From positions 1-21,440 of the forward strand of contig JBDRZZ010000027.1 in assembly GCA_039804165.1 (NCBI GenBank): a stretch of 21,440 bases of DNA, read 5' to 3'. Both the position numbers and the translations under genes were made by a program. This stretch comes from a candidate division WOR-3 bacterium (GTDB lineage: Bacteria; Hydrothermota; UBA3072). How positions within the stretch are numbered: the stretch's first letter is position 1; each line of letters begins with the position of its first letter. Under the pieces are notes generated by a model, which saw only the letters and a list, made by a program, of their open reading frames with translations, had not been told where the DNA came from and searched no databases. Below, in pieces: positions 9,147-21,440 of this stretch.

Positions 9147-9267
9147 TTCCTTTTTGTTTTCTTATAAATTTTCTGAGTTCAAAAATGATAAAATAAATAA
9201 TTAGAAAAAATATAACAGTTCTTACAAAAACAAAGAACCATAAAACGCCAACTTCAAGTTTATCCAT
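9130..9267 (-). CDS. Small single-span membrane protein, first gene of the ATPase operon
   Basis: A 45-codon ORF, too short for usual gene callers. The protein starts MDKLEVGVLWFFVFVR, has one strongly hydrophobic span at about residues 8-29, and ends in a basic tail (LRKFIRKQKGNGKRD), so by the positive-inside rule the C-terminus should be cytoplasmic. It overlaps the next gene (H-like) by 17 bp. There is no SD before its ATG; a candidate promoter places the transcript start at or within 1-2 nt of the ATG, fitting a leaderless mRNA. I do not recognise a family. It may assist assembly of the membrane sector, or serve as a translated leader for the H gene. Both are inference. Confidence 0.6.
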   Translation of the reverse strand: MDKLEVGVLWFFVFVRTVIFFLIIYFIIFELRKFIRKQKGNGKRD

Positions 9268-9272
9268 AATTT

Positions 9273-9300
9273 AAAATAAAGAATATACCCAAAAAGTCAA
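9273..9300 (-). promoter_or_regulatory. Candidate promoter of the V/A-ATPase operon (-35 in IS end)
   Basis: On the minus strand TTGACT (9300-9295) and TATTTT (9278-9273) are separated by 16 bp. The -10 ends 5 nt before the ATG at 9267, so transcription should start at about the ATG. The -35 hexamer coincides with the terminus of IS remnant copy 1, and the -10 lies outside it. The cspA promoter has the same layout, spacing and -10 sequence. Confidence 0.6.
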
Positions 9301-9891
9301 GACTCACAAAAATTGTAAACCTTAAATCCAAACTAGGTGGTATACTCTTTGGAGAGGTTTTCAGGACAAAAAGAATAAACCTAAAAGGAGTTATGAAAAA
9401 AGTATCTTGCAAAAAGATATGAGCTTTACAGAATTACGAGGTTATAAAAATATACACACCATTTGATCTTCCAAAACATACTAAAAAGAGTCTACACCCG
9501 AGAGGGATCGAATTTTCAATGTGGGAGCTTAAGAGAATTTGACAAATATGGCATAGAAGGTTTATAATCGCCCGAGAGCTCCTCATAAAGTCCATAAGAT
9601 GCTTTTACTCAAATAGATATAGATACCAAGCATCTGAACGACATTCCATTTTGCTATCTTTTTATGAAAGCCCTCTGATTACTAAAACATCAGTAACTCA
9701 TTCCTACATATTTTTGCTAAGTTTTTATGTGAGTTAGGGAGGAAATATTTAAGGAAGATAACCACCAGGGCAATGGACGTAAAATTTGAATTTAGAAACT
9801 GTTCATGCTTATGAAGAGACCTTATGAATTATATCTCAAAGTTTAAACATGCTAGCTTTGGAACGCTTAACAAACATTGTAAAACTTGACA
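9295..9891. mobile_element. Decayed insertion sequence, copy 1 (IS481-like, rve transposase)
   Basis: This is the only stretch of more than 300 bp between the ATPase operon and the mannosidase gene. Its left part (9295 to about 9460) and the region 9535-9600 match the second remnant at 20805 onward: both have a near-identical end (GTCAAGA, then TTAAATCCAAA about 26 nt inward, then AGGTGGT and TTTGG), and both share the tract ACAAATATGGCATAGAAGG or near it. The proposed ends are AGTCAAG (degenerate TGTCAAG) at 9295 and CTTGACA at 9885-9891, an inverted pair ending TGT/ACA as in IS481-type elements. At 597 bp it is far below a full element; the middle of the transposase is deleted. No target duplication is obvious. 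Confidence 0.7.
9393..9800 (+). pseudogene. Broken integrase-core transposase of IS copy 1
   Basis: Fragments are recognisable in several frames. EFDKYGIEGL at about 9535-9564, ended by TAA at 9565, matches the segment after the helix-turn-helix in copy 2. TQIDIDTKHLNDIP at 9607-9648 resembles the first catalytic-Asp region of rve/DDE transposases. CAATGGACGT with its flanks (about 9768-9790) resembles a decayed DNGREFEF second-Asp motif. Roughly the part between the HTH domain and the first Asp is missing, and many stops and frame changes interrupt the rest, so no functional protein is possible. The boundaries given are approximate. Confidence 0.65.
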
Positions 9892-20529: not shown

Positions 20530-20730
20530 TTAACGAATCTTTCTCACATTTTCAGCTTTTGGTCCCTTTTCGCTTTCCACAAGTTCAAACTCTACCTTAT
20601 CACCCTGAGAAAGAGTAACTAATCCGTCCTTAAGAGACGAATTGTGCACAAATACATCTTTTGAATTTTCCATCGTGATAAAACCATAACCCTTTCTGTC
20701 ACTAAACCACTTCACTTTACCTATAGCCAT
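20530..20730 (-). CDS. Cold shock protein (CspA family)
   Basis: A 66-residue single cold-shock domain with RNP1 KGYGFI (13-18) and RNP2 VFVHNSS (26-32), the nucleic-acid-binding motifs of the fold; Asn replaces the common Tyr in VFVHYS. It is probably an RNA chaperone. AAGGAGGT lies about 8 nt before the ATG. It has its own promoter at 20783-20810, giving a leader of about 45 nt, which is short compared with the long thermosensing leader of E. coli cspA. The stop is followed by a short palindrome and T-run but no convincing terminator. Confidence 0.95.
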
Positions 20731-20782: not shown

Positions 20783-20810
20783 AAAATATTCTTTTTTTAT
20801 CTTTTGTCAA
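20783..20810 (-). promoter_or_regulatory. Candidate promoter of cspA (-35 in IS end)
   Basis: TTGACA (20810-20805) and TATTTT (20788-20783) on the minus strand, 16 bp apart. The -35 is the outward-facing terminus of IS remnant copy 2, the -10 lies in flanking DNA, and the spacing and -10 are identical to those of the ATPase operon promoter. The start of transcription would be at about 20776. Confidence 0.65.
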
Positions 20811-21440
20811 GAGTCATTAGAAAAAGAGTGTTAAATCCAAAGCAGGTGGTTTACACTTTGTGGAGGTTCTGGGGATAAAGAGGGTAGATTTAAATATAAA
20901 CCTAAAAAATATAAGGTATTTTTCAAAAAAAAAGATGAGATTTATAGAGAGATAAGCGAAATTGTTCTAAATTGTTGGTTAGAAGAATTAAGGAGTTGCA
21001 ATGATTGTTAAAATAAATCCCCTCCTTTTAAAGACAAACAAAAAAGGAGGAAACACGTTTTATTATCAATAGGGCGAGGTTATAAAAATATGCAACCCTT
21101 TGATAAGGTAAAAATTCATTTTGAGATGGTAAAAATCCGAAAGAAGACTCTATAGAGATGTAGCCCGTATTTTTAACCCAGGAAGGCCTACCGTTTACAA
21201 ATGGCTTAAAATTTGGATAAATATGGCATAGAAGGCTTATATAACCCTTCCAGAGCACATCAGGGAGTCCATAATAAGACACTCAAACACATAGAAAAAC
21301 GCAAAGAGAAGGGTAAAATGTCAATAAAGGCATTGGTTAGAGATTTCTAAGTTCCTGTTTCCCATGAAACCGCCAGAAGGATTTTACATGCGAGAGGAAT
21401 TACCTAGAGAAAAGAGAGAAGGAAAAGGATGGCTTTTAAT
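20805..21440. mobile_element. Decayed insertion sequence, copy 2, running off the right edge
   Basis: The element begins at TGTCAAGAGTCA (20805), the fuller version of the end seen at 9295. Shared landmarks with copy 1 in the same order are TTAAATCCAAA, AGGTGGT, a TTTGG/GGAGG tract, ATGAGnTTTAnAGA (20935 and 9419), GAGGTTATAAAAATAT (21076 and 9438) and the KYGIEGL-coding tract. Between the third and fourth landmarks pairs, copy 2 has 127 bp where copy 1 has 5. This stretch includes an inverted repeat, CCTCCTTTT (21021-21029) and AAAAGGAGG (21042-21050). No other gene is visible here. Confidence 0.7.
21151..21440 (+). pseudogene. Broken transposase N-terminal part of IS copy 2
   Basis: A helix-turn-helix segment YRDVARIFNPGRPTVYKWLK is readable from 21151. 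A one-base shift at about 21216 moves the frame to DKYGIEGLYNPSRAHQGVHN. In-frame stops follow at 21348 (TAA) and 21405 (TAG), with recognisable protein continuing beyond them (VPVSHETARRILHARGIT). Together with the integrase-core motifs in copy 1 this indicates an IS481-like rve transposase. The catalytic part lies beyond the window. The copy cannot make a functional enzyme. Confidence 0.75.

Follow-up and report, generated by a model that had tools for sequence, protein, structure and literature searches.

The window analysed here, the whole 21,440-nt stretch of DNA, is contig C27 of the genome of an uncultured WOR-3 bacterium (G000; 49 contigs, 1.96 Mb). It carries two insertion sequence (IS) copies that share one orientation (Table 1). 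Copy 2, whose transposase gene is disrupted by stops and frameshifts, reaches the contig end and lies next to a cold-shock gene. On the minus strand, this gene is preceded by TTGACA, a 16-bp spacer, TATTTT and then an RBS and ATG, and the IS starts with TGTTAAATCC 18 bp outward of TTGACA. Copy 1 abuts the V-ATPase operon, with the left terminus at approximately 9320, further blast matches at 9437-9467 and 9527-9597, and an approximate right limit. The TTGACA-N16-TATTTT promoter in front of cspA and the common orientation of both remnants relative to cspA and the V-ATPase operon were features of the original prediction that are indeed present; for copy 1, the predicted 16-bp spacer and TATTTT were found as well, but the sixth base of the -35 element is T (TTGACT) rather than A.

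Table 1 Features of the window
Feature	Position	Strand	Description
V-ATPase operon promoter, -10 TATTTT	9273..9278	-	16-bp spacer to TTGACT
V-ATPase operon promoter, -35 TTGACT	9295..9300	-	Host; 19 bp from the end of IS copy 1
IS copy 1	9320..9600	+	Ancient degraded remnant; basis, blast matches to other copies
cspA-like cold-shock protein gene	20530..20730	-	66-aa ORF downstream of the TTGACA-N16-TATTTT promoter
cspA promoter, -10 TATTTT	20783..20788	-	16 bp from -35; basis, sequence
cspA promoter, -35 TTGACA	20805..20810	-	Host DNA outside the IS; kept in IS-free G003 and G005
Gap between -35 and duplication	20811..20814		4 bp; basis, sequence
Target-site duplication, promoter-side copy	20815..20828		14 bp, CATTAGAAAAAGAG
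Terminus of IS copy 2 on the promoter side	20829		TGTTAAATCCAAAGCAGGTGG...
IS copy 2	20829..21440	+	IS481-like, ~1.03 kb if complete, truncated by the contig end; genomic copies alignable inward from 20829; best family of the pieced translation, IS481

A search of the whole source genome identified more than 20 places with sequence of this IS; one further pattern match (C9:35168) was set aside as an apparent chance match within a coding sequence. The copies are 88-95% identical internally and have nothing in common outside TGTTAAATCC, and the 17-18 bp that separate this terminus from TGTCAAG, the motif containing the -35 hexamer on the opposite strand, differ in each aligned copy. The opposite terminus reads ...CACCTGCCTTGGAAGGTCT. 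Judging by the target duplication, the window contig runs on through the IS into contig C1 (C1:1-286), where CATTAGAAAAAGAG is repeated, with 14 of 14 positions matching, directly past the opposite IS end; being exact at both IS boundaries, this sequence is a target-site duplication. Altogether, seven left/right flank pairs with duplications of 13-15 bp adjoining the IS were found: window/C1, C2/C31 (15/15 matches), C10 (14/14), C15_45273/C11 (13/13), C30/C12 (14/15), C25/C34 (13/14) and C15 (11/13). Most of these pairings are based on the duplications alone, and most second flanks lie on separate contigs because the IS interrupts the assembly. In the seven insertions, the duplication takes up the stretch that separates the IS from the -35 element, with TTGACA 4-5 bp past the duplication. 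Given that the duplication directly adjoins TGTTAAATCC, the IS boundary lies at TGTTAAATCC and TTGACA is host DNA. Thus, TGTCAAG is not the IS end for which it had been taken: the copies share sequence from TGTTAAATCC inward only, and IS-free orthologues carry the -35 element.

IS elements with an outward -35 that forms hybrid promoters with host sequences are well known. The original prediction offered two alternatives, a preference for insertion 16 bp from a TATTTT-like sequence and selection of insertions which create promoters, and saw in the IS a mobile promoter module. That TTGACA almost always lies close to the IS is in line with the hybrid promoter idea. However, this hexamer lies 18-19 bp outside the IS, past the duplication, and is present in orthologous loci that lack the IS. 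The cspA orthologues, 71-72% identical to the window gene at the DNA level, are preceded by CTTGACA-N16-TATGAT in a member of the same genus (G003) and by CTTGACA-N16-TATATT in another member of the family (G005), both without the IS of the source genome; the homology to the window starts at the -35 element and is lost where the duplication and the IS begin. Likewise, the V-ATPase orthologue in IS-free G005 (L169) has TTGACT-N16-TATTTT, exactly as in the window. Because the IS-free orthologues retain both elements, the cspA and V-ATPase promoters are, on comparative sequence evidence, host DNA older than the insertions. These comparisons refute the hybrid promoter reading at both window loci, and for the element as a whole we consider it almost certainly wrong; neither the creation of promoters nor the mobile module proposed on this basis is upheld. 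More generally, calling an IS with an outward -35 from one or two copies can confuse a host promoter with the IS end.

What does hold across the copies is the fixed distance. When all copies were tabulated, as the original prediction had suggested, 17 of 19 TGTTAAATCC-type ends proved to have TTGAC[A/T] starting at a distance of precisely 18 or 19 bp on the outer side (5 at 18 bp and 12 at 19 bp), the exceptions being C47 (13 bp) and C5 (without a promoter). Against a background of 0.00055 TTGAC[A/T] per position, estimated from 112 kb of the source genome, the binomial probability of this placement is ~1e-48. The fitting ends then show a -10 element at 16-17 bp (T...T at 16 bp in nearly all), so that the observation of a fixed distance survived an examination of the other copies for the lack of such an element. 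Column counts over the 17 targets gave TTGAC in 17/17, a preceding C in 15/17, the first T of the -10 element in 16/17 and its last T in 17/17, with a 16-bp spacer. By contrast, none of the 12 AGACCTTCC-type ends has TTGAC[A/T] at 18-19 bp, and one has it within 13-24 bp (TTGACA at 15 bp), a significant difference in promoter placement between the two ends (Fisher 1e-5). Three ends (C2:136905, C18:360 and C41:6694; L024, L028 and L025, respectively) have the left-type terminus TGTTAAATCCAA ahead of a right-type core and face a promoter. An inverted insertion, a flip of the core or an assembly chimera are candidate readings of these ends; reciprocal ends, with a left core and AGACCTTCC, that would prove a simple core inversion were sought in the source genome and none was found. 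Since the three right-core ends bearing TGTTAAATCC face promoters too, it is the terminus TGTTAAATCC, not the core, that predicts the promoter-facing side.

The targets are complete promoters rather than TTGACW alone because TANNNT follows at 16 or 17 bp in 22 of 27 targets vs 24 of the 105 other TTGACW sites in the genome (Fisher 3e-8). Promoters of this type are readily detectable in the source genome, with 103 matches to TTGACA-N15-19-TATAWT compared with 8 for the reversed control. A spacer of 16 bp is the commonest one (59 of 100 among the matches listed), and the identical spacing at the two window loci, originally regarded as a special sign, loses this significance. The target genes, named by eye from ORFs, with the promoters judged by sequence, are functionally unrelated and include, in addition to cspA and the V-ATPase operon, a tRNA-Leu-like gene, a gene for a PilB/GspE-like ATPase and lipoprotein-like genes.

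The best family match of the transposase is IS481 (NF033577), both for intact relatives in other genomes (L129, E = 5e-43; L104, E = 2e-48) and for the protein pieced together from the source genome (E = 2e-11). Because all scores, those of the intact relatives (148-165 bits) as well as that of the pieced protein, fall below the NCBI curated cut-off of 224 bits, the transposase is, as judged by these profile matches, a divergent branch or relative of the IS481 family. The intact relatives (~350-377 aa, the IS of the source genome being ~1.03 kb) combine HTH_28/HTH_32 and rve_3 domains and, in their alignment (A1), show the invariant DDE residues D154, D227 (in TDNG) and E270; the corresponding gene is broken in the source genome copies. 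A plasmid collection yielded only distant relatives (27-29%), annotated as IS481 family. Membership in the Mutator superfamily was rejected on the basis of the HMM matches, there being no Mutator-type family (IS256, ISLre2) among the NCBIfam and Pfam matches of the intact relatives, and of the duplication length (13-16 bp vs 8-9 bp). The IS1202 family was also discarded, given its size of ~1.5 kb and TnsB-like transposases of 441-457 aa. No intact copy was found in the source genome, with the transposase gene broken in all copies searched, and the sole other rve match in this genome (C17, L098) contains an internal stop. A search for this IS elsewhere in the phylum was negative, with the matches outside the source genome resembling chance. 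Because the copies are ~94% alike despite the broken transposases, this implies, on sequence evidence, a recent spread of a non-autonomous family with a transposase absent from the assembly as seen.

A second lineage of IS481-like elements displays the same behavior. Intact relatives are present in the family to which the source bacterium belongs (L103/L130 and L105/L129 in genomes G001 and G004), and ends of this lineage, which begins with CGGGAAAG and has the left ends GGGAAAGTTCATGCACATGGTGGTACAG, were also found in G003, in G129 from the same order and in G066 from another family. The ends were located with a pattern that tolerated up to 3 mismatches, and their positions were fixed to within 1 bp by termini and duplications. 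In 7 of the 10 ends from G001, G003 and G004, TTGACA lies ~19-20 bp outside the end and is followed by a -10-like element at 16-17 bp, whereas the other 3 of these family ends deviate; two further sites, in G129 and G066, bring the total to ~9 fitting sites. This lineage has duplications of 15 bp (CTAAATTTAGACCTG) and 16 bp (CAACACCTGGCCGCAC), and in both lineages the promoter is faced by the end upstream of the transposase gene. One end of the second lineage adjoins an apparent groESL promoter. For several more weakly related elements from outside the family, no clear promoter was seen 5' of the transposase, although the IS ends are undefinable there. A single additional case is L154, on a UBA9088 contig, where a similar terminus, TTAAATCCAACTCAGATGG, precedes the transposase match by ~276 bp, and TTGACA with a -10 element lies only ~3 bp outside the terminus.

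Collectively, these sequence comparisons make it very probable that this IS481-like IS targets, always in one orientation, sites just upstream of existing sigma70-type promoters. The copies could instead have inserted at random, with survival or favour only for those upstream of promoters, because insertions within genes would be removed and sites upstream of promoters tolerated; yet harmlessness alone predicts a wide spread of distances, in contrast to the 18-19 bp observed, and explains neither the fixed orientation nor the pattern of the second lineage, which renders this scenario highly unlikely. It is perhaps even harder to credit that the IS end is a regulatory element of fixed phase (UP-like or an activator site) for which insertions were selected: the predicted cuts do coincide with the binding region of alpha-CTD and activators, but the targets are unrelated in function and the pattern is common to two elements with different termini.

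Under the directed insertion model, strand transfer would have a stagger of ~14-16 bp. The cut nearer to the -35 hexamer would fall 4-5 bp upstream of it and the more distant cut 18-19 bp upstream (approximately -40 and -54 from the transcription start, respectively), and the IS would be joined with its TGTTAAATCC terminus towards the promoter and AGACCTTCC away from it. Positions around -40 and -54 delimit the region where alpha-CTD and activators bind, so the cuts would flank this region, adjoining sigma region 4 on the -35 element. The promoter would remain intact and still drive the host gene; for this reason, the insertion is probably nearly harmless, and more than 20 copies could thus persist in a 2-Mb genome. 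As the transposase is broken in every copy searched, mobilization of the copies probably occurred in trans, through an intact enzyme that is absent from the assembly as seen. The transposase might be guided by the RNA polymerase holoenzyme or by the -35/-10 DNA itself. Direct recognition of (C)TTGACA...TAnnnT by the transposase, independently of RNA polymerase, is a serious possibility that we would put at somewhat below an even chance: the -35 element with its preceding C is the best conserved feature, and the distance is fixed relative to it, but the -10 element, far from the cuts, is conserved too, and the conservation is limited to normal promoter elements. Guidance by promoter-bound polymerase and direct reading of the promoter both fit the data, and the sequences do not speak for either. 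We lean towards the protein-guided mode because ISAjo2, through XerC, and TnGBS are thought to act in this way.

Promoter-directed transposition is known from TnGBS and ISLre2 (p-MULT 3) of the Mutator superfamily, which insert in an oriented manner 15-17 bp upstream of the -35 element of sigmaA promoters, with IRr towards the promoter and duplications of 8-9 bp; in ISKra4 (p-MULT 4), promoters occur at either side of those members whose repeats are near-perfect (Guerillot et al. 2014, PMC3942029). The same study ascribes the orientation to inequality of the inverted repeats, and here too it is the terminus that predicts the promoter-facing side. The element described here works alike, landing oriented at a short fixed distance upstream of -35, without being a member of these groups: it and its relatives are IS481-like, with duplications of 13-16 bp and a distance of 18-19 bp, and the promoter-side end is the one upstream of the transposase gene rather than IRr. 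IS481 elements produce duplications of 2-15 bp, mostly 6 bp, although some are ~15 bp (Kojima and Bao 2023, PMC10045372). Our element resembles this family in its HMM matches and perhaps also in its termini and duplications, with a TGT-type terminus, TGTTAAATCC at one end and AGACCTTCC at the other, and duplications of 13-15 bp in the source genome and 15-16 bp in the second lineage. Such duplications are longer than those of most members, and we found no report of promoter targeting by IS481 elements in the open-access literature. Single-transposase IS of the ISAjo2 group of the IS1202 family also insert in one orientation and at a fixed distance, there from the XerC-bound dif/pdif site (Harmer et al. 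2023, PMC10132070); they differ in having 5-bp duplications, a 441-457 aa transposase and dif sites instead of promoters as targets. The yeast Ty3 integrates at a fixed place beside promoters via the transcription machinery (cited in PMC3942029), in its case at eukaryotic Pol III genes and by a demonstrated protein contact, which for our element is a candidate mode of guidance.

The novelty therefore is that a habit known in Mutator elements occurs in an IS481-like element. Bacterial promoter-directed transposition has so far been deemed unusual and linked to a signature in the sequence of Mutator-type enzymes; the IS481-like case indicates at least two origins of this strategy. It also points to promoters as a candidate target of long-duplication IS481/IS1202 elements, for which, in the long-duplication IS1202 group, a target was previously sought without success (PMC10132070). 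In a more speculative and rather doubtful extension, IS481-type transposases with long (~15 bp) duplications would have acquired, independently of Mutator, the ability to dock on RNA polymerase holoenzyme bound at a promoter. The geometry of this complex would then account for the stagger of 14-16 bp (-40 to -54), and other long-duplication IS481/IS1202 elements may target promoters too.

Finally, the insertions mark the positions of real promoters and provide a natural promoter map for an uncultured phylum. In the V-ATPase operon (window 9265-9278), the first small ORF begins 5 nt past the -10 element, an arrangement kept in G005, and the transcript looks leaderless from the sequence; ORFs start similarly near other targeted promoters (C25:24349 and C2:137959). 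At C34:168 (L091), the far side of the insertion has an outward promoter of its own, TTGACA-16-TAAAAT, so that the IS lies between divergent promoters.
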